A stretch of 12,647 nucleotides of DNA from Halobacteriovoraceae bacterium. GTDB lineage: Bacteria > Bdellovibrionota > Bacteriovoracia > Bacteriovoracales > Bacteriovoracaceae. Within the stretch, counting starts at the first letter, position 1. Each line of letters begins with the position of its first letter. Location of the stretch: positions 1 to 12,647 of the forward strand of contig JABJPQ010000423.1 of NCBI GenBank assembly GCA_018663815.1, read 5' to 3'. The translations under genes and the position numbers were made by a program. Shown in pieces: positions 2 through 12,184 of the stretch. Below the pieces are notes generated by a model, which did not search any database, had not been told where the DNA came from, and worked only from the letters and a program-made list of their open reading frames with translations.

Positions 2-127
2 TTAGTTGTGAGTGAGTTTCAATTAGAGGGAGAGAGCATTAGGTCATATTATAGCTACTCAGGAATAGTTCTTGTCTTGGTATATTCATTAGTCGTTTTA
101 AGAAGGATGAGTGTGTGGAAGAAGTAA
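2..127 (+). CDS. C-terminal end of a membrane protein (5' truncated)
   Basis: Frame 2 is open from the window edge to a TAA at 125-127 and gives 41 residues. It contains a single hydrophobic stretch (GIVLVLVYSLVVL) followed by a basic tail (RRMSVWKK), as expected for a last transmembrane helix with a cytoplasmic C-terminus. The other two forward frames are broken by stops within the first 45 nt. The next gene starts at 115 inside this one, a 13-nt overlap, so this is the upstream member of the coupled membrane-protein operon. The start and most of the protein lie outside the window. By position it could be another subunit of the ion-pump-like module, but the family cannot be identified from 41 residues. 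Confidence 0.6.
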   Translation, partial: LVVSEFQLEGESIRSYYSYSGIVLVLVYSLVVLRRMSVWKK

Positions 128-354
128 TTGCAATCATGGTTGTTGCCGTCTTTTTATTACAGTCTTCTGATTCTAAAAAAGCGATTCGGGGTCTGGGTAT
201 GGTCGTTTTGGCTATGCTTTATTTTTTAAATGAAATTAAAGTGTATGAATATACAAAGCAAATATACTTAGATTTAATTGCTGTTATGATTTTATTCATC
301 TTCCCTTTTATTTTTAAAGCTTTTTATGTTTATAAGAAAGAGAGAAAAGCGTAA
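115..354 (+). CDS. small hydrophobic membrane protein, 79 aa
   Basis: This 79-aa protein starts at GTG, with an AGAAGGA ribosome binding site at 101-107. It has two to three predicted membrane segments: roughly residues 3-16, 24-40 and 50-70, the last being LDLIAVMILFIFPFIFKAF. It ends in a basic tail (YKKERKA). Size and topology recall the small subunits of Mrp antiporters or complex I (MrpF, MrpC, NuoK), but I see no diagnostic motif, so this is inference from context. It overlaps the upstream partial gene by 13 nt and shares TAATG with the next gene, so translation is probably coupled. It is likely a structural subunit of a membrane complex. Confidence 0.6.
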   Translation: MEEVIAIMVVAVFLLQSSDSKKAIRGLGMVVLAMLYFLNEIKVYEYTKQIYLDLIAVMILFIFPFIFKAFYVYKKERKA

Positions 355-1241
355 TGATAATATTTTTTTTCTTATTGGCTTATGTCCTTATTCTTCTTAA
401 TGGTAAGTTTTTAAATAAGGATAATAATAATCTTATTTCTGTGTTGTTTGGACTTCTCTCCCCTGTTTTCTTGTTTATAGAAAATAATTTTGGATTATTA
501 ATATTTAATTTGCATCAAATAGAACTTGCTTTTGTCGTTCTTTTTTCAGTTTTAAGTAGTTTGTACACTTTATATTGCTTGATTAATGAAAAAGAAAGTG
601 CGCGAGGAATCGACTTAGAATATGTAATGATGGCTTTGGTCTTGGTGAACTTAATCCCCTTTAAAATAATAGCCTTGTTGCTTTTAGAGGCTCATGAGGG
701 AGTAAAACTTGAAGGGGCTAGGCTAGGTTATTTTCCAAGATTACTAGCTTTGTGGGCTCTGATTTTTCTTTCAATGCATGGACAGTATGAGTACACGGGT
801 GTTTTTATTATCATATTAACAACTTATTATTCACTTGATAAAATATTTAAAATAGATTTAACTTCAAAGCTTTTAGGTATCGGCTTCTTGTTTAGCCTCG
901 TTTTAAATACAGTTGAATACAGTCCAATGTTTTACGGACTGATGTTATCGATGCTGTTAGTGTTATTGATCAAATTGATGTACCTGCGCCTTATACCTGA
1001 TCATCAAAAAAAGATACAAAATACGATCAAAAATGCTTTGTGGATTGAAAAAATGAACTTGTTGCTATCGCTTTCTAGTAAAAGAAAATGGTTTATTACT
1101 GAAATGAAAGCAGAGGTTACAATTAGTAAACATGTTACAGAAAGGAATGTTGATTATTTTAAAAAGACAGATGAAAAAGAAGTTTTTGCTCTTGTAAGCT
1201 TTGCGGTTTTATTCTTGTTACTTTTAGGTGCAATTAAATGA
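354..1241 (+). CDS. polytopic membrane protein, 295 aa, possible antiporter-like subunit
   Basis: The protein is mostly hydrophobic with about seven to eight predicted helices. It has a charged cytoplasmic-type loop near residues 212-265 (rich in K/E/D) and a final helix at about 273-293. Residues about 45-80 (FGLLIFNL followed by a long aliphatic helix) are reminiscent of the N-terminal part of NuoL/M/N proteins. An acidic helix-edge segment, LLLLEAHEGVKLEGARLGYF at about 108-127, carries three Glu residues that could be functional. It lacks the GR-GP loop of NuoH/HyfC. The start ATG overlaps the preceding stop (TAATG), and the end overlaps the next gene by ATGA. The family assignment is weak; the membrane localisation and operon membership are secure. 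Confidence 0.7.
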   Translation: MIIFFFLLAYVLILLNGKFLNKDNNNLISVLFGLLSPVFLFIENNFGLLIFNLHQIELAFVVLFSVLSSLYTLYCLINEKESARGIDLEYVMMALVLVNLIPFKIIALLLLEAHEGVKLEGARLGYFPRLLALWALIFLSMHGQYEYTGVFIIILTTYYSLDKIFKIDLTSKLLGIGFLFSLVLNTVEYSPMFYGLMLSMLLVLLIKLMYLRLIPDHQKKIQNTIKNALWIEKMNLLLSLSSKRKWFITEMKAEVTISKHVTERNVDYFKKTDEKEVFALVSFAVLFLLLLGAIK

Positions 1242-2251
1242 TAGAAATAACCTTCTTGTTATGTATTTTTCTTGTTTTAATTTTGGAGAGCCTCTTTCCA
1301 AAAAAGGTAATCAGTCTATTGGCAATTTGTGTTACCTATAGCATGTTTTTATATGTTGTAGGAGCAGACCTATTCTCGCCTATCCACTTTAAACTCGAAA
1401 GTATCTCAAAACCACTCTTTATAACGGTTATGCTAGGATATGTTGGAGCTCGATATTTGTCTGTAACTCAATATCGTCTCTCCGTTGGAGCTCTTCTTTT
1501 ACCTTTTTTAATGTATCTACCAGAGGTCTGGATGCATGCGGCAGTGTTGATCATATATGTTAATATTAGAAAAACATCCAAGGTGCTTAAGCTAGAAACA
1601 TTATTTATCTTACTCATTGTAAATAGTTTAAATTATAAATTGCTTATTCCAGCAAACATTCTTTACATTTTGAATAGTGGGATTATTTTTTCTTTCCTAT
1701 ATAATTTTTTAAGCAGTAAAAATACCAATGCTTCTGATGAGCAAGACATGTTTATGGTTGTCATTGCTTTAATGTACCTTCTTGGAACAGAGCCGTATCA
1801 AATTATGGAATTAAGCGGAATCAGCAATATGGTCATCATGTTTATATTGTTTATAATTGTATCGTTAAGAGGTATGAAAAAGTACTCCGTGATATCTATA
1901 GGCCTAATGAGTTTTTTAAGTACCGAGTCTATGGCAATTTTTATTTCAATACTCAGTATCTCTTTGGTGCTTGTGTTGAAACAAGAAAGTTGTGCATATG
2001 AAATTAAATCAAAAATAAAAGAAGATAATCAATTGTATCGGACACTGATGTTTGGATTAACTTCATATCTACTTTTCAGCATTGTTGTGAGTCACTATAA
2101 TAACCTAGTTGGTGTTTGTATTGGAGCATTGTTTACAGCATTGATGTTGAGAGTTGTAATAAAAGAAGAGGTGAATAATATTTATTTTAATTATAGAAAA
2201 TTAATTTCTTTGCTTTTGATTGTTTTTTCGGTGGTGGTCGTGTCCGTATGA
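1238..2251 (+). CDS. polytopic membrane protein, 337 aa, unknown family
   Basis: This protein has about nine to ten predicted membrane helices, short loops and no signal peptide beyond the first helix. A hydrophilic loop lies at about residues 159-169 (KNTNASDEQD) and another at about 249-268 (QESCAYEIKSKIKEDNQLYR). A helix beginning YQIMELSGISNMV carries an acidic residue. The overlaps at both ends are ATGA, so its production is tied to the genes before and after it. No recognised enzyme motif is visible. By size, topology and neighbours it may be a diverged proton-channel subunit of the NuoL/M/N or Mrp type. This rests on context only, and another polytopic transporter component is possible. 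Confidence 0.7.
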   Translation: MIEITFLLCIFLVLILESLFPKKVISLLAICVTYSMFLYVVGADLFSPIHFKLESISKPLFITVMLGYVGARYLSVTQYRLSVGALLLPFLMYLPEVWMHAAVLIIYVNIRKTSKVLKLETLFILLIVNSLNYKLLIPANILYILNSGIIFSFLYNFLSSKNTNASDEQDMFMVVIALMYLLGTEPYQIMELSGISNMVIMFILFIIVSLRGMKKYSVISIGLMSFLSTESMAIFISILSISLVLVLKQESCAYEIKSKIKEDNQLYRTLMFGLTSYLLFSIVVSHYNNLVGVCIGALFTALMLRVVIKEEVNNIYFNYRKLISLLLIVFSVVVVSV

Positions 2252-3342
2252 GTAACTTGGTATATGCCCTTATTGTTATTATTGTAAATCTAATACTTTT
2301 AGAGTTTACAAGCATGCGATCAAGATCAAGAAGCCTTGCACTGTCTGTCTTGTTTTTATCCCCCCTTTTTTTAGAGGTTAGCCACAATGAGGATTCCACT
2401 CGGGTCGTTATACTATTGTTAGGTTATTTGTTTGCAGTTGGGATGCTTTTGTTTAAGGCAGATGATGATGAGGGAGAGATGAATTTTTTTCACCTAATTC
2501 TACCTTGGTATTTGCTTGTTCTGGCTACGCCACAGTCTATTGTTGAATTAACAATCTTTGTTGTTGGGATTCATGTTATATATTTTATTTCACAAAATAA
2601 AAAAGTTTATGGAGATGGAAACCTTTTAAATTATATCGTTAGTAACTTGTTAACAATAATAATTTTCAGTGTCTTCGTCGTTGTTTGGAAAATTGTAGCC
2701 GGCATTGGAAACGGTACGTCTAATTTCGTTTATCAAGGCTTGGTACTTGTTTATTGTATTCATCTCGTGGGTGGATTTGGCTCATTCTCTTGGGGAGAAA
2801 GGACACTTTTAGTTCTTGACCGTCATAATGTAGTAACCTTTAAGCTTTTAAACCTTTTTATCATACCAGTTATCGTCTTTATGAAATTAAAAGAATTTAT
2901 TGAGGTTGAGACGATACTGAGTAATGATTTATATTTTGTTTTTATATTGTCTTTACTTGTTTTAATTTACACAAAAGATTTGATTAGAGGTCGTTTTGTA
3001 ACATCCTCATACTCAATAGTTAGTTATAACATGCTGTCTGCTGGACTTGTATATGTTTTTGTTAATGGATTTACTGAAGCGATGTTAATGGTTCTGCTTG
3101 TTCTCAATATTGCTTTGTACTCGCTAATTAACAGTCAAAAAAACATACCAAAAAATATCTCATGGTTTTTGGTGTTGTTATTGGTCGGAACGCCTTTTTC
3201 TCCATTCTTCATTTATAAATTTTTCTACTTAAAACAAATATTTGCTGGAATGAGCCCATTGCTCACACTTGTGTTTAGTGTCTTTTTGTTTATACCGTTA
3301 CTTTGGTTGAAGAAATTTCATCGCAAGGAAGTTTATGAATAA
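2248..3342 (+). CDS. polytopic membrane protein, 364 aa, resembles NuoN/MrpD-type antiporter subunit
   Basis: Of the three polytopic proteins this one carries the clearest family echo. The segment SSYSIVSYNMLSAGLVYVFV (about residues 251-270) resembles the 'AYSSISHMGY' helix of the proton-antiporter (NuoL/M/N, MrpA/D) family. The segment LLVGTPFSPFFIYKFFYLKQ (about 312-331) resembles the later 'L-GiP-t-GF--K-y' helix with its conserved lysine. The length is well below the usual 450-500 residues, so part of the fold is missing or too diverged to see. It overlaps its upstream neighbour by ATGA and the TPR gene by 8 nt. Its likely role is ion conduction in a membrane complex. The family link is moderate inference from motif shape, not a demonstrated homology. 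Confidence 0.65.
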   Translation: MSNLVYALIVIIVNLILLEFTSMRSRSRSLALSVLFLSPLFLEVSHNEDSTRVVILLLGYLFAVGMLLFKADDDEGEMNFFHLILPWYLLVLATPQSIVELTIFVVGIHVIYFISQNKKVYGDGNLLNYIVSNLLTIIIFSVFVVVWKIVAGIGNGTSNFVYQGLVLVYCIHLVGGFGSFSWGERTLLVLDRHNVVTFKLLNLFIIPVIVFMKLKEFIEVETILSNDLYFVFILSLLVLIYTKDLIRGRFVTSSYSIVSYNMLSAGLVYVFVNGFTEAMLMVLLVLNIALYSLINSQKNIPKNISWFLVLLLVGTPFSPFFIYKFFYLKQIFAGMSPLLTLVFSVFLFIPLLWLKKFHRKEVYE

Positions 3343-6300
3343 ATACAGAGTATTACTTAAAAATAAAAGAGCCATTGGACCATTTGATTTAAACCAAATA
3401 AGTGAACTGATCTTTAAAGGAAAAATCACAAAGGAAAATTTATTTCAACTATTTCCAACTGGGTCCTGGAAAAATGTCACTGAGGTTGATGAAGTTATTC
3501 GTTTGTTTGATAACGATAAAACCCTCCAGAGAGAGGAAACTTTTCTAGTAAACTTAAGAGAGCTGGGTCTCGAATTAGAGAATAGTAGTGAAGAAGTAAA
3601 AGAGATACTACCAACGATTAAAAATAAAAGTGAAAAAATAAGCACAAACAAAAAGAGTCTTACAGATAATATGATGCCCTCTGATGATGCAGAGTCAGAG
3701 ATTGTCTCTGAAATTATTGAACACAAAGCATTTGAGTTTGAACATAAAGCAGAACCTTTAAGAACAAGCGACGGAAAAGAAAAGAAGGTTGTGGATGAGA
3801 AAAAAGACATCGATCTAGAGACGACGAAAATAAACCCAGAATATCAGAAATACTTAAAAGAGTTAAAACGCGAACAAGAAGCTGAGGAAAAACAAGAGAA
3901 AAAAAACATTGCTAAAGAAATATTGCAGCAACAGGTTGAAGATGTTGATTATGAGAATGAGTCGACTCAGATGATTAACTTCGGAGACCTTGAAAGTAAT
4001 ATGAAAGATGCAGATGAAAATGAAATTGAACTTCTGAATGAGTATGTAAGAGAAAAGAAAAAGGTCATTGAAAGCAACAAGGAGGTCGTGGGAAGCCCGA
4101 GTGTAGATGAAGATATTGCGAAAAAAAATAAAAATTTTCTTATTGCTGGTGTTGCAATTTTATTGTTTGTAATGTTTTTTCTAGATTCAGAAGATGATAA
4201 TCAGAAGAGCAAGGGTGAAATAAAACTAAATCGTTCAGTTGTAACATTTCCTTCACGGTTTGATCTTGAAGATGCTGTTATAGCAAAAAACCTCTACGAG
4301 CAAGGTTTGAAACTTGAAAAAATGTATACATACGAATCCTCATTGAAGGCTTCTCACAAATATCTAGAGTCTGTAGAAAATAAATTTAATGACAATCCTG
4401 CTGCTGCAAGACTGATATTTTTATATGCACATAATTTAAATAATACTGAAAATAAAAACGAATCTGCAAATACAATATTTAAACTTGTTCAAATATTCAA
4501 AGGAAAAGCTAGTGATAATCCAAGCTTTGCGAGTAGCCTTGCATACTTTTATTATACAATAAATAAACTTAATGCTTCGGTTAAAATTTTTGATAAGTAC
4601 ATGACTTTGAATAAAACCAAGGCAACTCTAAAGCTATTTGCAGTTAACTTATTGGCTCTATCTAAGCTTGGACAAATTGATAAAGCGGATAAAATCGCGA
4701 GAAAGCTTAGAGGTCAAAGCACACGGGATTATTTTACTTCGTATGCTCTTTACGAATATTACAAACTTCAAGGTGAAGTTGAAAAAATGGAAGAAGTTCT
4801 TACGCAAGCGCTCTCAAACTATCCAAAATCGAGTTATTTTTGGATACAAAAAGGCTACGAATTAGTTGAAAATGGGGATTTTGATAACTTATTAATTGTT
4901 ATTAAAAAGTTAAAAAGTTTGGGTGTTGGGGGGTCACATTATTATTACTCACAATATTTAATTTTGCGAGGAATGTACTTTGCTAATGCGAAACAAACAG
5001 TCAAGGCTGCAAAGGAATTTAAAAAATCTTTGGCCATGTATGAGTCCGTGGAACTAATAGAGAAACTGGCATTTTTGGAAGAAGCAGAAAATGATGATGC
5101 GAATAACTTAATTATAGATAGTAAGGCCTTAAGACTCTTGAATATGGCAAAGCAGGAAGTCGCAAATAATAACCCAAAAGCAGCTTTCAAGCATTGTCTT
5201 GAAGCAGTTACGCTAGCACCTGAGATGATTTCTGTTAAATTATTTTTAGGAAAACTTCAACTTGATAGAGGTTTTATTACAGATGCTATTGTCCAACTTG
5301 AAGCACTCTATAAAGCAAACTCTTCTTCAGTGGATATTTTATTTGGTTTAGTAGATGCTTATACTGAAGGGTACAAGTTTAAAAAAGTTGAGTCGTTACT
5401 CGGGGTTGCTCAAAATACCCCAGGAGACCATCTTGATAGACTATATGCTGCCAGGGCAAAATATTCTAGTTATCAAGGGAATTTTAATGTTGCCTCTGGT
5501 TGGTTGCAACGAGCGATTAATGAAAACCCACTAAATGATAAAAATATCTATTCTTTGGCAAAGCTATATCTTAAGTATCATAAGTATAGTCGCGGACGAA
5601 GTGTATTAAAACGTGCAATGGAGTTAGACCCGGCAAACATCGACTACCGAATAAGTTTTGCAAAAGTTCTCTATGAAGTGGAGACGAGTAATGCAGCTAT
5701 TGGGTATCTATATAGCGTGCTTGAAAACTTTCCTGATAATTCAAAAATTTACAGTGCAATTGGTACTTACTACTATAGAAGTGGTCAAATCAAAAAATAT
5801 GAAGATATAAAAGAAAAAATACTCTCTTTACCTACCAAGGATGTTAGTCTCTATGAATTCCTGATTGAGTCCTCAAGATTAGATGATAATGTCGATAAAA
5901 TGATCGAATACTCAGAGAGTTTAATTTTAATTTCCCCCGGAAATTTAAAAGAAAGATTAAACTTAGCATCGACTTATATTGGATTACAGAAGTATAAGAA
6001 AGCAAAAAAGCACCTAGATGCTATTTCAAGCAGGTACGATTCGTATCCTAAATTACAACTACTTTATGCGAAGCTATACTTTCTTATTGATAAAGTTGAT
6101 AAAGCAACAATGTTGGCAGAAAGAGAAATAAAAGAAAATCCTACTGTAGAAGATGGATATAATTTACTAGGTGATATTTATATTAAAGAAAAGGATTTGA
6201 TCAAAGCGAGAAAGTTTTATCTTAAGGCTATGAAAATAAATCCCAAAAATATAGCGGCAAATATGGGAGTCGCTTATATTGCATTTCATAGAGACCGGTA

Positions 6301-6499
6301 TGATATGGCACTAGATCAATACCAAAAAGTTATTGAAATTGACCCTTCCCGCTCAGATGTTTACAGGTTGCTAGGAGATGTTTACCGCAAACTTGGGCAG
6401 AGTCAACTGGCCATAAGAAACTATAAACAATTTCTTGAGATTTCTCCCAACAGCCAGTATAAGAATAGTATTAAAACCTATATTAGAACTTTAGAGTGA
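3335..6499 (+). CDS. GYF_2 domain, transmembrane and TPR repeat protein, 1054 aa
   Basis: Residues about 4-58 form a GYF_2-type domain (YRVLLKNKRAIGPF, then an SELIFKGKITKE helix and GSWKNV). Such domains are thought to bind proline-rich or partner peptides. Residues about 60-265 are charged, Glu/Lys-rich and probably disordered or coiled-coil. One membrane helix lies at about 267-283 (NFLIAGVAILLFVMFFL), preceded by KKNKN and followed by DSEDD, which predicts N-inside and C-outside. The remainder is helical repeats. The clearest canonical TPRs are at about 935-1042, with the pattern LGDIY, A--FY-KA and P---A. The start has an AAGGAAG site at 3325-3331 and overlaps the previous gene by 8 nt. 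The protein is a likely scaffold linking the cytoplasm to a periplasmic TPR platform, perhaps for the upstream membrane module. Confidence 0.85.
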   Translation: MNKYRVLLKNKRAIGPFDLNQISELIFKGKITKENLFQLFPTGSWKNVTEVDEVIRLFDNDKTLQREETFLVNLRELGLELENSSEEVKEILPTIKNKSEKISTNKKSLTDNMMPSDDAESEIVSEIIEHKAFEFEHKAEPLRTSDGKEKKVVDEKKDIDLETTKINPEYQKYLKELKREQEAEEKQEKKNIAKEILQQQVEDVDYENESTQMINFGDLESNMKDADENEIELLNEYVREKKKVIESNKEVVGSPSVDEDIAKKNKNFLIAGVAILLFVMFFLDSEDDNQKSKGEIKLNRSVVTFPSRFDLEDAVIAKNLYEQGLKLEKMYTYESSLKASHKYLESVENKFNDNPAAARLIFLYAHNLNNTENKNESANTIFKLVQIFKGKASDNPSFASSLAYFYYTINKLNASVKIFDKYMTLNKTKATLKLFAVNLLALSKLGQIDKADKIARKLRGQSTRDYFTSYALYEYYKLQGEVEKMEEVLTQALSNYPKSSYFWIQKGYELVENGDFDNLLIVIKKLKSLGVGGSHYYYSQYLILRGMYFANAKQTVKAAKEFKKSLAMYESVELIEKLAFLEEAENDDANNLIIDSKALRLLNMAKQEVANNNPKAAFKHCLEAVTLAPEMISVKLFLGKLQLDRGFITDAIVQLEALYKANSSSVDILFGLVDAYTEGYKFKKVESLLGVAQNTPGDHLDRLYAARAKYSSYQGNFNVASGWLQRAINENPLNDKNIYSLAKLYLKYHKYSRGRSVLKRAMELDPANIDYRISFAKVLYEVETSNAAIGYLYSVLENFPDNSKIYSAIGTYYYRSGQIKKYEDIKEKILSLPTKDVSLYEFLIESSRLDDNVDKMIEYSESLILISPGNLKERLNLASTYIGLQKYKKAKKHLDAISSRYDSYPKLQLLYAKLYFLIDKVDKATMLAEREIKENPTVEDGYNLLGDIYIKEKDLIKARKFYLKAMKINPKNIAANMGVAYIAFHRDRYDMALDQYQKVIEIDPSRSDVYRLLGDVYRKLGQSQLAIRNYKQFLEISPNSQYKNSIKTYIRTLE

Positions 6500-6506
6500 G
6501 GCATCT

Positions 6507-7781
6507 ATGCATGATATAAAACAAATTGAAACGAACCAAGATTATGTAAAAGAAAATTTATTAAAGCAAAATTTTGATATATCGATTATTGATAAGGTTT
6601 TGAGTTTAAACATTAAGAGAAAAGAATTAACAACTAAGGTTGAGAAAATTCAAGCGGAAATCAAAAAAACCTCAAAAGAAGTAGGTTTGAAAAAGAGAAA
6701 TGGGGAAGATGCATCTGATCTAATGAAATCGGTTCATGAGTTTAAAGCTTCAATTGAGCTAAGCAATAGTGAACTTGATAAAATTAAAAATGATTTAAAT
6801 TATGAGCTTTCAACGATTCCAAATTTTATCGAAGACGACTCCCCTATTGGTACGACTGATGCAGATAATATTGAAGTCAAAAAATGGGGAGATCCAAAAC
6901 AGTTCGAATTTCAAACTATTGACCATGTTGATTTAGGTGAAAAATTAAAGATGCTAGATTTTGAGGCTGGAGCAAAACTTACGGGCGCAAGGTTTGTTGT
7001 TTATAAGGGAGCACTCGCAAAACTTGAAAGAGCGCTAGCAAATTTTATGTTAGATCACCATGCAACAAAAGGTTATGAAGAGATTATTCCTCCTTTTATT
7101 GTTCATGAGAGAGCATTGTTTGGAACGGGACAGCTTCCTAAGTTTAAAGAAGACCTTTTTAAAATCGAAGGACAAGACTGGTACTTGATTCCAACTTCTG
7201 AAGTCCCTCTTACAAATATTAAAAGAGATGAAATTTTTAATGAGGCAGAGTTGCCGATTAAGTATACTGGTCATACTCCTTGTTTTAGATCTGAGGCTGG
7301 CTCCCATGGTAAAGATACTCGTGGTCTGATTAGAATGCATCAGTTTAATAAAGTCGAGATGGTTAATATTGTTCATCCTGAAAAATCAGTTGCAGCGTTG
7401 GATGATATGACAAGAAATGCAGAGGAAATTTTAGAAAAATTAAACCTTCCCTATCGTACAGTAAGGTTATGTACTGGGGATATTGGTTTTAGTGCACGTA
7501 AAACTTTTGATATTGAGGTGTGGGTGCCAAGTCAAAGTACTTACAGAGAGATTTCTTCAATATCAAATTGTGGCGACTTCCAAGCCAGACGTGCAGGTAT
7601 AAGGTTTAAAAAAGATGGTGGAAAACCTCAGTTTGCTCACACTCTCAATGGTTCTGGCCTTGCGGTTGGGCGTTGCGTTGTGGCCGTAATGGAAAATTAT
7701 CAAAATTCTGATGGCTCCATAGCAATACCTGAGGCACTTGTGCCTTATATGGGTGGAATGGAGAAGATTGAGATCAAATAG
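6507..7781 (+). CDS. serS: seryl-tRNA synthetase
   Basis: This class II synthetase charges tRNA-Ser (and tRNA-Sec) with serine in the cytoplasm. At 424 aa it matches the usual bacterial length. Residues about 30-105 form the long Lys/Glu-rich antiparallel coiled-coil arm that grips the variable arm of tRNA-Ser. Catalytic landmarks are the TSE serine-binding loop at 230-232, motif 2 at about 260-280 (FRSEAGSHGKDTRG onward) and motif 3, GSGLAVGR, at 382-389. The ATG at 6507 is preceded by TGAGG overlapping the stop of the TPR gene, 7 nt upstream, so serS may be transcribed from the membrane-protein operon. Two tRNA-Ser genes follow directly. No truncation or missing active-site residue is seen. 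Confidence 0.98.
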   Translation: MHDIKQIETNQDYVKENLLKQNFDISIIDKVLSLNIKRKELTTKVEKIQAEIKKTSKEVGLKKRNGEDASDLMKSVHEFKASIELSNSELDKIKNDLNYELSTIPNFIEDDSPIGTTDADNIEVKKWGDPKQFEFQTIDHVDLGEKLKMLDFEAGAKLTGARFVVYKGALAKLERALANFMLDHHATKGYEEIIPPFIVHERALFGTGQLPKFKEDLFKIEGQDWYLIPTSEVPLTNIKRDEIFNEAELPIKYTGHTPCFRSEAGSHGKDTRGLIRMHQFNKVEMVNIVHPEKSVAALDDMTRNAEEILEKLNLPYRTVRLCTGDIGFSARKTFDIEVWVPSQSTYREISSISNCGDFQARRAGIRFKKDGGKPQFAHTLNGSGLAVGRCVVAVMENYQNSDGSIAIPEALVPYMGGMEKIEIK

Positions 7782-7835: not shown

Positions 7836-7925
7836 GGAAGTGTGTCCGAGTGGTTGAAGGAGGCAGTTTTGAAAACTGTTGAACGTTTGCGCGTTCCGTA
7901 GGTTCGAATCCTATCACTTCCGCCA
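7836..7925 (+). tRNA. tRNA-Ser(UGA)
   Basis: The acceptor stem GGAAGTG (7836-7842) pairs with CACTTCC (7915-7921), followed by discriminator G and an encoded CCA. The anticodon stem GCAGT/ACTGT encloses the loop TTTGAAA, giving anticodon TGA at 7870-7872, which reads UCA and other UCN codons. A long class II variable arm (GAACGTTTGCGCGTTC) and the T loop GTTCGAATC are present. All hallmarks of tRNA-Ser are intact. It lies 54 nt after serS and 41 nt before a second serine tRNA. Confidence 0.98.
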
Positions 7926-7966: not shown

Positions 7967-8055
7967 GGAGATGTGGGTGAGTGGCTGAAACCAGGCCCTT
8001 GCTAAGGGTCCGAACGTTCTGCGTTCCGCGAGTTCGAATCTCGCCATCTCCGCCA
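7967..8055 (+). tRNA. tRNA-Ser(GCU)
   Basis: The acceptor stem GGAGATG (7967-7973) pairs with CATCTCC (8045-8051), followed by G and an encoded CCA. The anticodon stem GGCCC/GGGTC encloses TTGCTAA, giving anticodon GCT at 8001-8003, which reads AGC/AGU. The extended variable arm contains GAACGTTCTGCGTTC, close to that of the upstream tRNA-Ser, and the T loop is GTTCGAATC. It is probably co-transcribed with the UGA tRNA. Its 3' end (CTCCGCCAT, 8048-8056) recurs at 8735-8743, as expected for a tRNA gene used as an integration site. Confidence 0.98.
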
Positions 8056-8896: not shown

Positions 8897-10495
8897 CTAC
8901 TGAATGCAATTTTTTAGTACATAAGAGTTAATGCTACTCTTTCCATTAAATAGTTGATTATACTTTTGATAGTGCTTACATGCTTCAACTTGGTTTTCCA
9001 TTTTTGAATATGTTATCGCGAGGTGTAAAATTGCAACATAATGATGAGGCATTCTTCTGATGACAGAGTTAAATGTGCCTATTGCTTTTGTGTAATTACC
9101 ATTCTTTTCTTCAAGAAATCCCTTTTGAATGCATAATCGCCAATTTGATGGATATAAACGGCAGCCAACTCTAGTAAGGCGTAGGTTGTTTCTTTTGTTA
9201 AACTCTATATAATGGGAAGCAGTAAAAAAACATCCTACTAACAAAATCGAAATAAATAGTGGAATGAATAAAATTTTTATCTGTTTTGTTGATAGAGCAA
9301 TATTTTGAGGAATTAATAGTTTAAGTGATATACCCAATAAAAAAGCAAAAAATCCAAATAGAAATGGTGTTTCCAGTGGAAATGCCCACATCAGTTGATT
9401 ACAAAAATAAATAATAAGAGAAAATGAAAAGAGGTAATGCATATTATGTATTTTTTGAAAAGTACCATGAAGCAAAAAATAAAAAAGGAATAATATAGGA
9501 AAAATACTTAAAAATCCGATTTCCGACATAACTTCTAAATATCCATTATGCGGTGACTTTACTACAATCTTTTCTGTTGATTCTCTATCATACTCAAAAA
9601 AATCATCATAAGGAATATAACCAAACTCAAAATTTCCCAGGCCAACACCTTCGGGGTTCTTAAATATCATTGCAGAAGTATTTTTCCATTTTGTTATTCT
9701 TAGCCCTGCACTTCCAACCTTTAATCCATATTGCTTGTAAACATTGGTAGATGCGATATTGAGTAAAATCGCAGAACCTAAAAATGTTAAAAAGAATAAC
9801 GATATTAATTTAGTTTTATTTTCACGAAACTTTAAAAAGATAATTATGGAAAATGAAAGACTTATACCTAAAATCACAGACCTTGTATAAAAAAGTGAAA
9901 TAAATGATAATGTTGCACTGAGAATCAAAGTCTTTGGTATAGTAATTTTTTTTTTATTGGTTTCAATAAGTGAGATAATCTGAATTATAGCAGATAAGCC
10001 AAGTATCTCACTTATTCTATTTCGGTGACCAAATAATGAGGTTGGAAAAGAACTTTTTGTAAACGAAGACAAGAGGTCAAATCCAAAAAATTGTAGGTAG
10101 CCTATCAATAGTATAACTCCAGTGGGTATTATAATTGGTAAGTACAATTGCTTGGAGAAAGGACTGTTACTAGAGTATTGATTATACCCAAAAATACAAA
10201 TGATTAGAAAACATAACCAATCTAAAAGATGGTTATCAAAATATATTGGCCAATTTGAAATTGAACTTATGACCAGACTAATAAAAATTAATAATAAGGA
10301 AATATTTATAGAGGTGTTTTTGGGAATAGATAACGTTTTTTTTTTTAAAAAGCTTACTAATAGTATTAGTGCAGAAAGATAAAGCCCTATCCACTTAGGT
10401 GTATACCACTGATCTAAGAATGAAAGACTTACTGGTAAAGTAATTAATGAAAATAAAACGAAGTAAAGAAACTTAAAATTACTTAGGAATGGCAT
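8897..10495 (-). CDS. O-antigen ligase-like membrane glycosyltransferase with TPR tail
   Basis: The protein is 532 aa from the ATG at 10495. Upstream in-frame starts (to 10531) would lie deeper inside the preceding gene and add a polar leader. The chosen start gives an N-terminal membrane helix and has AAGG upstream. About ten to twelve helices follow. Wzy_C/WaaL-type features are GHRN at about 156-159, an Arg in GLRITKW at about 266, and the large periplasmic-loop motif SPHNGYLEVMSEIGF at about 314-328. Residues about 440-518 form two TPR-like repeats outside the last helix. Family members transfer lipid-linked glycans to lipid A core or to protein (PglL type). It overlaps the upstream secreted repeat protein by 17 nt, so a protein O-glycosylation role is plausible. 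The substrate is unknown. Confidence 0.8.
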   Translation of the reverse strand: MPFLSNFKFLYFVLFSLITLPVSLSFLDQWYTPKWIGLYLSALILLVSFLKKKTLSIPKNTSINISLLLIFISLVISSISNWPIYFDNHLLDWLCFLIICIFGYNQYSSNSPFSKQLYLPIIIPTGVILLIGYLQFFGFDLLSSFTKSSFPTSLFGHRNRISEILGLSAIIQIISLIETNKKKITIPKTLILSATLSFISLFYTRSVILGISLSFSIIIFLKFRENKTKLISLFFLTFLGSAILLNIASTNVYKQYGLKVGSAGLRITKWKNTSAMIFKNPEGVGLGNFEFGYIPYDDFFEYDRESTEKIVVKSPHNGYLEVMSEIGFLSIFPILFLFYFLLHGTFQKIHNMHYLFSFSLIIYFCNQLMWAFPLETPFLFGFFAFLLGISLKLLIPQNIALSTKQIKILFIPLFISILLVGCFFTASHYIEFNKRNNLRLTRVGCRLYPSNWRLCIQKGFLEEKNGNYTKAIGTFNSVIRRMPHHYVAILHLAITYSKMENQVEACKHYQKYNQLFNGKSSINSYVLKNCIQ

Positions 10496-10919
10496 AAGGA
10501 GTACCCTTGCCTGGGTTACCACTAATTTCACTGCTGATTGATTCTTCTATTAAACTGTCTCTTACTTGATTATCGACTTGAGTGGGAATAATTTGATTAC
10601 ACGGGAAAATTGGGTAACCAGGGTAACTTGAATGACTTGGATGACTTGGATAGCTAGGATGACTTGGGTAACTCGGGTAATATGGGTGACTTGGATGACT
10701 TGGTTGACTTACACTGCTTGGGTAAAACGGGTGACTTGGGTAACTAGTATTGCCGGGATAGCTTGGGTGATTTGCGTAAATCGGCTGACAATCATGGCTA
10801 GAATTCCTCGATGATGTAATAATGCTTGTGAAAGAGTTCCATATTTTAGTAAAGAACCCATCCTCAGAATAAGCGATGTTACTAAAAGCGATAATTGAAA
10901 TAATCAAAATTAACTTCAT
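10479..10919 (-). CDS. secreted His/Pro/Ser/Tyr-repeat protein, 146 aa
   Basis: The ATG at 10919 has AGGAA 7 nt upstream and begins a clear signal peptide (MKLILIISIIAFSNIAYS, cleavage after about residue 18). A TTG start at 10946 would extend it but lacks that ribosome site. The mature part is Ser/Thr-rich (SFTSIITSSRNSS). Residues about 51-106 are made of xPS triplets (HPS, YPS, with YPG variants), flanked by Cys44 and Cys107, which could form a disulfide closing the repeat domain. The tail is polar. It is probably periplasmic, surface or secreted, and Ser/Tyr residues could be glycosylated by the enzyme encoded next, which it overlaps by 17 nt. No family is recognised. Confidence 0.7.
   Translation of the reverse strand: MKLILIISIIAFSNIAYSEDGFFTKIWNSFTSIITSSRNSSHDCQPIYANHPSYPGNTSYPSHPFYPSSVSQPSHPSHPYYPSYPSHPSYPSHPSHSSYPGYPIFPCNQIIPTQVDNQVRDSLIEESISSEISGNPGKGTPYAIPK
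10602..10769 (-). repeat. coding tandem repeat encoding xPS/xPG triplets
   Basis: Degenerate 9-nt units (CCAAGTCAC / CCAAGTTAC-type on the minus strand) recur through this stretch and encode HPS/YPS steps. The imperfect tandem DNA suggests expansion by slippage and likely length variation between strains. Confidence 0.7.
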
Positions 10920-11081
10920 ACGAATTCCTATAGAAAATATTCCCAATATGACGTTATCAAATAGAAGTATTTAAGTCTAGCACGGTACTAATTACCATAA
11001 ATAAAATAAACTCTTTAATTTACGAGTGGCTTGTTACTTGAGAAATACAATAGGGAATGCTCTTTTAGAGGTGAAGTGGTC

Positions 11082-11186: not shown

Positions 11187-11603
11187 TTAGTGCCTTTTAA
11201 TCTTCTGAACAGTAGGCTTAATAACTTGTTCTTTAATATGATCTTTAAAAACAAGTGTGATAGGAATTTCTTCGTTTAGCTTTAAAGGTTTTGTTAACCC
11301 TATTAGCATTATGTGAAAACTTCCTGGTTTAAGCTGAGTACTACCTTTGGCCGGAATGATAATCTTGGGAACTTCTCTCATCATCATCATGCCGTTTTCT
11401 TTAATATGAGTATGAAGCTCTACTCTCTTTGCGCGAGATGACTTTGCTTTTACTAAAGTCACATCAAAATCGTGAGGGTTAATAATATCGACAAAAACTC
11501 CTGTCGCAGGTGTACTTGGAGGAAGAAGTCTTACTCTGGCATTTTGAAATTCCAAGGCAAAAGCATTGAAACTTAAAAGCATTATTAATAGTGCGATTTT
11601 CAT
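11187..11603 (-). CDS. PCu(A)C periplasmic copper chaperone
   Basis: This 138-aa protein has a signal peptide (MKIALLIMLLSFNAFA) and one PCu(A)C beta-barrel domain. The copper-binding pattern H-x10-M-x21-H-x-M is present exactly: His64, Met75, His97 and Met99. Extra His66 and Met72-74 lie around the site. The family carries Cu(I) in the periplasm and supplies the CuA or CuB site of cytochrome c oxidase together with SCO proteins. The start overlaps the SCO1 stop by ATGA, so the two are translationally coupled. The tail is basic (KPTVQKIKRH). Identification is firm; the oxidase genes it serves are outside the window. Confidence 0.92.
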   Translation of the reverse strand: MKIALLIMLLSFNAFALEFQNARVRLLPPSTPATGVFVDIINPHDFDVTLVKAKSSRAKRVELHTHIKENGMMMMREVPKIIIPAKGSTQLKPGSFHIMLIGLTKPLKLNEEIPITLVFKDHIKEQVIKPTVQKIKRH

Positions 11604-12184
11604 ATTTTTTCTCCCATATATAATTTAATATTTTTTATACTTATATTAACATCTTCACCGTAAGGAATAATATCTTTTAACTGACCATCTTTACCCACAA
11701 TAAAAGCTTCGGCGCTATGGTCTACAGTATAAGACGTTTGGTCTTTGTCTTTTGGTTTGTGAATCTTATATTTAACGCCATAAAGGTTTGCAATGTGATC
11801 TAACTTTTCTCGAGAGGAGGTCGCGCCAATAAATGTTGAGTGAAAAAAATTAACATACTCATCAAGAACAGGAATGGTGTCTCTTATTGGATCTAAACTA
11901 ATAAAGATTACCTGTAATAAGTCTTGTTCAGGGGGCGTTAGTTTGTTTTTAATAAAAGCTAAGTCTGACAAGGTCGTTGGACATACATCAGGACAATATC
12001 GATAACCAAAATAGACAATAACTATTTTTCCCCTATCTTGGCGTAAATTATATTTTCCCTTGGTTGATGTGATCTTAAAATCACCACCTAAGTATTCAGG
12101 CTTGCGAGTTTGCAGGTAAAATATTGTTGTCGTAACTATAACTAAGGTTAGTACTGATAAAAATATTCTGAAGTTTGAATTCAT
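11600..12184 (-). CDS. SCO1/SenC family copper-delivery protein
   Basis: This 194-aa protein has an N-terminal membrane anchor (about residues 6-24) and then a thioredoxin-fold SCO domain. The copper ligands are present: Cys64 and Cys68 in YRYCPDVCPT, and His156 in TVDHSAEAFIVG. The DP motif ISLDPIRD at about 95-102 is also typical. SCO proteins are membrane-tethered facing the periplasm and metallate the CuA centre of cytochrome oxidase, or reduce its cysteines. It is the first gene of a two-gene operon with the PCu(A)C chaperone and is divergent from the gene at 12323. An AAGG site lies about 10 nt before the ATG. No lipobox is seen. Confidence 0.95.
   Translation of the reverse strand: MNSNFRIFLSVLTLVIVTTTIFYLQTRKPEYLGGDFKITSTKGKYNLRQDRGKIVIVYFGYRYCPDVCPTTLSDLAFIKNKLTPPEQDLLQVIFISLDPIRDTIPVLDEYVNFFHSTFIGATSSREKLDHIANLYGVKYKIHKPKDKDQTSYTVDHSAEAFIVGKDGQLKDIIPYGEDVNISIKNIKLYMGEKI

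Follow-up and report, generated by a model that had tools for sequence, protein, structure and literature searches.

Complex I (NDH-1) is usually pictured as a redox pump, and forms of it that have 11 subunits and are without the NADH module exist. In the Mrp antiporter and in DAB2 (vectorial CO2 hydration), antiporter-like membrane subunits work without a redox arm; neither complex, to our knowledge, has a NuoA, CD or I subunit. The energy-converting hydrogenase-related (Ehr) complexes are complex I relatives in which the large subunit is without its active-site ligands and the antiporter subunits are full-length. The locus described here lies on a 12,647-base stretch of DNA (the window), which is an entire contig of a draft genome (G000; 717 contigs, 81 percent complete) from the Bdellovibrionota (Halobacteriovoraceae/Bacteriovoracaceae). 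Its first half encodes a run of small and polytopic membrane proteins followed by a protein with tetratricopeptide repeats (TPRs). These genes very probably descend from a second complex I of this family, as gene order and the profile comparison of related sets indicate; a sequence-only reading of the window had already suggested a reduced complex I relative. The lineage keeps nearly all subunits of that complex after quinone chemistry and pumping have, by sequence, apparently been lost, and what remains is probably a complex I descendant that is neither redox enzyme nor pump.

A reduced complex I membrane arm

The six genes were thought to overlap at every junction, and they do: five genes on one strand follow a sixth that is truncated by the contig start (Table 1), with overlaps of 13, 1 (TAATG), 4 (ATGA), 4 (ATGA) and 8 nucleotides. 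(Gene overlap alone does not show stoichiometry, and the fixed stoichiometry that was read out of this strict coupling does not follow from it.) At a stop chance of about 0.079 per codon, taken from the base composition of the window, random frames would remain open over 295, 337 and 364 codons with probabilities of 2.5e-11, 7.9e-13 and 8.4e-14. In Pfam and NCBIfam no Nuo or Mrp family matches any of the four complete membrane proteins or the truncated one at E ≤ 10, and the membrane proteins of the first relatives, scanned directly against families, likewise gave nothing. Family-based annotation overlooks the set, none of the window's membrane proteins being called as Nuo.

The assignment comes from relatives of the locus. 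A search with the second-set NuoM of G020 stayed within its own genus (2 of 129 genomes); the TPR protein was the better query for finding loci. At E ≤ 1e-20 it has relatives in 111 of the 125 genomes of the family, and wherever the locus is readable their gene immediately follows the last nuo-type one. Same-genus contigs give access to the genes upstream of position 1, whose inspection had been proposed: A', H' and a whole J' lie there before K' (subunits of the second complex are primed), so that the module extends beyond the window. Loci L005 (G002) and L006 (G003) each have seven consecutive membrane genes, for proteins of 89/91, 269/271, 140/146, 75/80, 292/285, 344/337 and 357/372 amino acids (aa), with 11 of the 12 junctions overlapping. 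(In the eight reduced loci other than the window, 46 of the 48 junctions between the seven membrane genes overlap.) The proteins have 3, 7-8, 5 and 3 predicted transmembrane (TM) segments, and then come the three larger ones; L005 continues with the TPR gene and serS, and the contig of L006 ends just past the last membrane gene. Judged by frame order and predicted hydropathy, gene order and TM counts are those of NuoA, H, J, K, L, M and N. When the last seven frames before the TPR gene were taken, A-H-J-K-L-M-N order was found in 27 loci, to which the window adds its four frames and a fragment, and the 3-8-5-3 TM counts of A, H, J and K are largely retained down to the reduced sets. These window-like sets, nine in all (G000-G003, G012, G018, G074, G077 and G149), were assigned by gene order, profiles labelling at most their J' or K'.

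Less eroded (intermediate) second sets are easier to place. G020 has a longer set at the same place, with A, H and N above the Pfam cut-offs for complex I families, K with Oxidored_q2 as its best, sub-threshold match, and J, L and M without a match. Compared with canonical NuoA-N by hhalign, the intermediates give the best value of each row on the diagonal (at least 99 percent for H, L, M and N, 93 for A, 91 for K and 23 for J). For the reduced group, profile links were found for A', J', K' and N'. Reduced N' against intermediate N' is best in its row at 54 percent; K', which stands between J' and L' in all nine loci, and J' (compared without the window's cut J') are also row-best on the diagonal, weakly, at 49 and 34 percent. 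The J' frame of the window ends in LRRMSVWKK, and the whole J' proteins of L005 and L006 end in DGKKWK and RRNFWKK. L' is graded across loci from 657 down to 217 aa, about half of its TM segments being gone in the reduced loci. Where NuoL has its lateral helix, eight of nine reduced L' proteins (not that of L141) have their longest TM-free stretch, of 58-79 residues, just before the last TM segment; in seven of eight canonical NuoL proteins that stretch is 107-110 residues long (52 in L164). The predicted model of L' was too poor for use.

That the 364-aa protein is NuoN-like, as had been noticed, is upheld by its profile match, its motif and its predicted fold. Among the structural matches of the low-confidence predicted model of N' the 29 best rows are all antiporter-like subunits; Foldseek alone gave this model no match with E below 0.001. 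Residues 314-324 match the NuoN broken-helix motif GxPxxxGFxxK, and P316 is the only nearly invariant column among 22 N' proteins. Of the nine reduced loci, three (the window, L005 and L006) retain the Lys of the motif, and the other six are without it.

The quinone module at a second locus

The sequence-only reading saw no catalytic arm, which is correct for the window but not for the genome. On contig C4 of G000 (L129), reached via NuoD profiles, a 492-aa lipoprotein, its lipobox recognized by eye, is encoded ahead of B' (146 aa), a C-D fusion (CD', 527 aa) and I' (141 aa). CD' scores 119 bits for Complex1_49kDa (cut-off 24) and 35 bits for Complex1_30kDa, also over its cut-off, and matches NuoD at 1e-46 over the length of that profile; for I', the NuoI match has E 4.8e-16. 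The case of B' is weak, with NuoB as the sole NCBIfam match at E ≤ 0.01 (E 0.0065) and no Pfam NuoB match at E ≤ 1. With this proviso for B', relatives of NuoB, C, D and I are encoded in the window's own genome. The core of CD' keeps 37 invariant columns across seven proteins. The lipoprotein, to which family searches assigned no clear family, is found at E ≤ 1e-5 in 106 of the family's 125 genomes; CD' was located near its gene in G022 and G028, and the two are on different contigs in G014. In L132, a 361-aa frame after I' was considered as a part of the system and rejected, being a fatty-acid desaturase (PF00487); L133 and L134 look alike by eye. G001 has two different second quinone-module loci (L130 and L131); this assembly has 9 percent contamination and is likely a mixture of two strains.

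These partners bear on the Mrp antiporter, which had been named beside complex I as a possible relative. As we understand an Mrp complex, it has no NuoA, CD or I homologues; here A and H are present in relatives, and CD' and I' are clear in G000. Mrp identity was rejected because the system includes partners that resemble NuoA, H, CD and I, with normal nuo genes standing in tandem with it in relatives.

The family's normal complex I is split over two loci, nuoAHJKLMN and nuoBCDI (L126, L138; G005, G024). By contrast, contig C538 of G000 (L088) holds a piece of an ordinary contiguous nuo operon, D-H-I-J-K-L-M in an order read by eye. Considered as the other half of the complex, it was rejected; it is probably a foreign contig in the assembly, because its order is unlike that of the split loci, no such NuoH is found in G001 or G002, its GC content differs (0.368 vs 0.330) and its NuoH falls outside the family clade. 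PF00146 (NuoH) has no match at E ≤ 1 in G001, G002, G012, G014, G018 or G021, and sub-cut-off pieces in G003. Further, hydrogenase-4-like complex I relatives, up to several per genome, were recognized by eye at L038, L039 and L041 (G020, G022).

Apparent loss of the chemistry

Quinone and N2-cluster residues were surveyed in 31 CD' and 30 B' proteins of second complexes, with window-like rows from G000, G001 (twice), G002, G012, G074 and G149, plus G018 for CD'; we take the NuoB cysteines to be the N2 ligands and the NuoD His and Tyr to be quinone-site residues. The His-Tyr pair is intact in four CD' proteins (G034, G064, G067 and G071) and missing as a pair from 27; His alone is also found in G100, and Tyr alone in G087, G103 and G107. 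None of the eight window-like rows has His or Tyr at the aligned place (G018 is without the whole Tyr stretch). Of the 30 B' proteins, 15 have all four N2 cysteines; the seven window-like ones have none of them at the aligned places. The complex very likely performs no quinone reduction, to judge by these alignments.

PF01512 (NuoF) was found in three of 16 genomes tested, G026, G067 and G071; in G071 it shares its strand with CD' and lies some 0.7 kb downstream. It was not found in G000-G003, G012, G018, G074, G077, G149 or G021, nor in G005, G013 or G024 (genome completeness is 81 percent for G000 and 99 for G002). Natural 11-subunit complexes are also without NuoF. PF03116 (NqrB/RnfD), for which size and score point to NqrB, is present in 14 of the 16 genomes, strongly in 13 and weakly in G071, and absent from G026 and G067; every window-like genome tested has it in the NqrB type (a cut frame in G000).

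The membrane arm shows a graded loss. Of the charged or Tyr columns that are invariant in eight canonical sets, longer intermediates keep fractions of 0.15-0.32, shorter ones 0.03-0.14 and reduced sets 0.01-0.16, the alignment of reduced L', M' and K' to the canonical columns being uncertain; three longer intermediates (L153, L163 and L166) keep most of them. The NuoM TM5 Glu (nine E, one D) and the NuoN broken-helix Lys (nine K, one R) survive in the 10 longer intermediates. Across the nine reduced loci there is no invariant charged column in K', L', M' or N'. As a set, the transport Lys and Glu of canonical NuoL, M, N and K have not survived (three of nine loci retain the NuoN Lys), and the canonical NuoK glutamates are absent at the aligned places of K'. 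The best-kept charged places of the reduced group are a loop Glu of K', present in eight of nine loci, and some basic or acidic positions shared by seven or eight, mostly near chain ends or, by eye, TM borders. The ion pump suspected in the sequence-only reading is unsupported, because invariant charged residues are lacking and the set of transport Lys and Glu is lost, and, by its residue patterns, the complex probably does no pumping.

Distribution, descent and selection

Around the TPR gene four locus patterns were read. Normal nuoAHJKLMN, then a shorter second set, then the TPR gene is the arrangement in 16 of 46 labelled loci (for example G005, G013, G024, G026 and G089). The second-type set stands alone in G014, G020, G022, G032, G150 and the nine reduced genomes, and the normal set alone in G006, G009, G035, G076, G104, G106 and G119 (in shorter pieces of G109, G139 and G140, normal N directly precedes the TPR gene). 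No membrane set is left in G021 (L079, contig C15), where mfd-sized and TPR genes are about 115 bases apart; the TPR gene and, elsewhere, the lipoprotein remain.

The second arm and the fused CD' go together: in 43 genomes both are present in 30, the arm only in two, CD' only in two and neither in nine (Fisher p 4.8e-6), in a non-random draw of genomes whose loci were fetched and with shared ancestry uncorrected. (G137, G138 and G141, whose contigs are cut, are omitted; G034 is counted with the arm even though its set scores equally as canonical and second, and G028 is counted with a weak label.) The nine genomes without fused CD' comprise G006, G009, G104, G106, G109, G139 and G140, which have separate NuoC-sized and NuoD-sized frames, G035, with one match across a stop, and G021, with none. 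The TPR protein and the lipoprotein are already partners where the second complex is intact (G067 and G071).

A tree of NuoH (45 rows, midpoint root) places the intact second copies of G067, G064, G071 and G017 apart from the canonical family clade on supported branches, and by this separate placement the notion that the window's set is a recent copy of the canonical one was rejected. Six eroded NuoH' copies, whose long branches leave them without a place in the tree, have end branches of 4.3-10 changes per column vs a median of 0.39; a canonical copy (G045) is also long, at 3.85. The ratio of non-synonymous to synonymous substitution rates (dN/dS) of second-set genes stays below 1 in every case that could be computed among five less eroded pairs, 0.02-0.45 by NG86 and up to 0.50 by YN00; these values are rough, dS being saturated in most pairs and many YN00 and some NG86 values not computable. 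It resembles that of canonical genes in L153/L166 and L153/L163, which keep their residues, and is several-fold higher in L148/L149 and L159/L162, which have lost them (0.20-0.45 in L148/L149 vs 0.08-0.10 for the canonical copies). The frames of the nine reduced loci are open at about 20 percent identity.

Stages in between are still to be seen in the family: G071 has an intact second complex and, next to it, NuoF; other genomes have copies with a dead quinone site; the window has the eroded form; and in G021 the loss is complete. The simplest account may be that the family has two complex I's, of which the second lost its redox role in Na+-NQR lineages without NuoF, the channels eroding afterwards.

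What the remaining complex may do

The proposed arrangement is as follows. In the window lies the 3' end of the gene set for the membrane arm of a second complex I (the last part of J', then K' to N'), with the TPR protein as an accessory; at the second locus, B', CD' and I' are the remnant of its quinone module and stand with the lipoprotein. In this lineage the complex has no NADH module any more, and its N2 ligands, its quinone His and Tyr and the conserved residues of the proton channels are gone, the subunits remaining as open frames. The L-shaped inner-membrane body most likely still assembles, without quinone chemistry or pumping, and would serve as anchor or scaffold for a trans-envelope structure formed by the TPR protein (GYF part cytoplasmic, TPRs periplasmic) and the lipoprotein. 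A non-redox scaffold for this protein pair seems to us, by a modest preference, the best explanation overall, because the subunits stay encoded, the NuoD core is conserved and two envelope proteins stay with the loci; these two, moreover, accompany the intact complex (G067, G071) and outlive the lost one (G009, G021). Descent from the complex I gene set, loss of catalytic residues, co-retention of two loci and open frames are read from the sequences themselves; assembly, topology and the scaffold role are what we infer. In its full form, in which an entire complex I with its quinone module has become an inner-membrane platform that neither does redox chemistry nor pumps and that holds the GYF-TPR protein and the lipoprotein across the envelope, the proposal is possible rather than probable.

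Its most serious competitor, which we consider less likely but well worth keeping in view, is decay in progress: with NADH oxidation taken over by Na+-NQR, the second complex I was no longer needed, and its genes are drifting under weak constraint with no present role. The graded shrinkage of L', the disappearance of the membrane set from G021 and of the second set from G009, G076 and G119, the long NuoH' end branches, a dN/dS above canonical in L148/L149 and the NqrB-type PF03116 of the window-like genomes are all what decay would leave. Open frames in nine reduced loci are not, since a drifting frame of 295 codons would almost surely be broken, and neither are the invariant columns of CD' nor the usual joint retention or loss of the two loci; a retained non-redox role is slightly favoured over pure decay. 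An active alternative, which takes up the suggestion of the sequence-only reading that an envelope process is energised, is a conformational machine driven by the membrane potential, in which the remaining sites would move ions and drive that process via the TPR protein; it could appeal to the NuoM Glu and NuoN Lys of the longer intermediates, to the nearly invariant NuoN motif Pro and to the envelope-spanning partner. It is improbable: NuoM Glu and NuoN Lys are lost in most reduced loci, whose K', L', M' and N' have no invariant charged residue, and L' is short of about half its TM segments. That unrelated membrane proteins (e.g. of a transporter or an envelope complex) replaced the nuo genes is more improbable still, given the same place between mfd and the TPR gene, the same seven-gene order with TM counts kept, the lateral-helix-like stretch, the profile links, the N' fold and a diverged NuoB-CD-I locus in the same genome. 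Nowhere was a profile seen to put the polytopic proteins into unrelated families, nor a genome to have them separately, which the sequence-only reading had named as its refutation; for L' and M' the sequence test is simply negative.

Several observations sit uneasily with the scaffold proposal or with the descent that underlies it. Reduced L', M' and H' of the window's genus have no sequence similarity to NuoL, M and H by profile comparison, also when long and short intermediates are treated as separate groups; L and M of the short group then matched those of the long one no better than other subunits, whereas pooled intermediates match canonical L and M. The assignment of H', L' and M' in this genus is by order and hydropathy, for L' also by its lateral-helix-like stretch. 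G003 and G077 have the arm and no CD' was found in them; G119 has a full second quinone module and G076 its CD', both without the second arm. These four exceptions speak against strict coupling of the two loci, and those of G119 and G076 fit decay. The TPR gene and the lipoprotein persist in G021 and G009, where the second arm is gone, and therefore do not need it. I' of G000 retains two ferredoxin-like cysteine motifs, needless for a purely structural part, and K' keeps E45, in the predicted TM2-TM3 loop, in eight of nine reduced loci, which implies that some specific constraint remains. No pair in the window's group is sufficiently close for dN/dS, so that selection there is read from open frames alone. 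Finally, the second complex of G026 is eroded although this genome is without NQR and has a NuoF at another place; the order of events in the simplest account is therefore not general.

The TPR protein and neighbouring genes

The last gene of the set had been described as encoding a GYF_2-TM-TPR protein. Its TPRs are clear (TPR_14, 95.4 bits against a cut-off of 23.5, in seven stretches), and the GYF_2 part of the name has only a match below the cut-off of 25.8 bits behind it. The TPRs follow the TM segment and are presumably periplasmic, a topology suggested by the distribution of charges. GYF-TPR proteins may have a link to the myxobacterial gliding machinery, on which a literature search found nothing. 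The TPR gene has no match among the PLSDB plasmids, and a scan with one peptide pattern gave 59 loci, of which 33 are Bdellovibrionota-type relatives and the rest almost all Bacteroidota with a weak match to part of the TPR region.

In the window 7 nucleotides separate serS from the TPR gene, and many relatives, though not all, have a gene of serS size behind theirs; mfd, on the opposite strand, is a frequent neighbour of the locus (identity checked for L006). Two tRNA-Ser genes (anticodons TGA and GCT; + strand, 7836-7925 and 7967-8055) directly follow serS, which puts the serine charging enzyme and two of its tRNAs together. Farther on, on the - strand, lie genes for a 544-aa polytopic O-antigen ligase-like protein (8897-10531; Wzy_C, 50.1 bits) with a weak C-terminal TPR and for a 155-aa secreted-looking protein with Ser-His-Pro-Tyr-rich repeats (10479-10946; no Pfam family at E ≤ 0.001), and an SCO1/SenC gene overlapping a PCuAC copper-chaperone gene (11187-12184), which are probably concerned with cytochrome oxidase assembly.

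Table 1. Features of the second-complex locus in the window
Feature	Positions	Strand	Description
J'	2..127	+	final 41 residues of NuoJ-position protein, truncated by contig start
K'	115..354	+	79 aa, 3 TM, NuoK position, GTG start
L'	354..1241	+	295 aa, NuoL position, ~8 predicted TM vs 15-17
Lateral-helix-like stretch of L'	996..1178	+	residues 215-275, TM-free, directly before last TM
M'	1238..2251	+	337 aa, NuoM position, ~11 predicted TM
N'	2248..3342	+	364 aa, NuoN-like
Vestigial G-x-P-x-x-P-x-F-x-x-K motif of N'	3187..3219	+	residues 314-324
GYF-TM-TPR protein	3335..6499	+	1054 aa
GYF_2-like N-terminal stretch	3359..3493	+	residues 9-53, 15.6 bits, sub-threshold
Single TM of TPR protein	4136..4186	+	residues 268-284, position picked by eye
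serS (seryl-tRNA synthetase)	6507..7781	+	neighbour outside complex, possibly co-transcribed

Comparison with known systems

A search of one open-licence library found nothing on such a system. PMC11656739 and PMC5760749 make no mention of complex I, nuo, NADH, quinone, respiration or tetratricopeptide, and PMC12361115 has no word beginning Bdellovibrion. The relatives, which hold stages between the intact and the eroded complex, constitute a natural test of which parts of complex I are needed for assembly and which for catalysis: the channels are gone earlier than the small subunits, the NuoD core and the L' stretch that resembles a lateral helix. A further suggestion from the family is that displacement by Na+-NQR need not end a respiratory enzyme, which can persist as a part of the envelope.

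With complex I (NuoA-N) the system shares its gene content (A, B, CD, H, I, J, K, L, M and N), the order of the arm and the recognizability of CD' and I' by profile. The window's group differs in being without the N2 cysteines, the quinone His and Tyr and the canonical transport residues, in that NuoF was not found, in L', M' and N' proteins that in the window are shorter by a quarter to more than half, and in its two extra partners, the GYF-TPR protein and the lipoprotein. The family's own normal complex I (nuoAHJKLMN and a separate nuoBCDI), which lies directly upstream of the second set in the 16 tandem loci, is of full length and keeps its residues. Mrp and DAB2 have working channels; here the arm is eroded, and remnants of NuoA, CD and I are present. 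The Ehr complexes are alike in their lost active-site ligands, and the present system is set apart from them, as we know them, by antiporter subunits that are eroded too.

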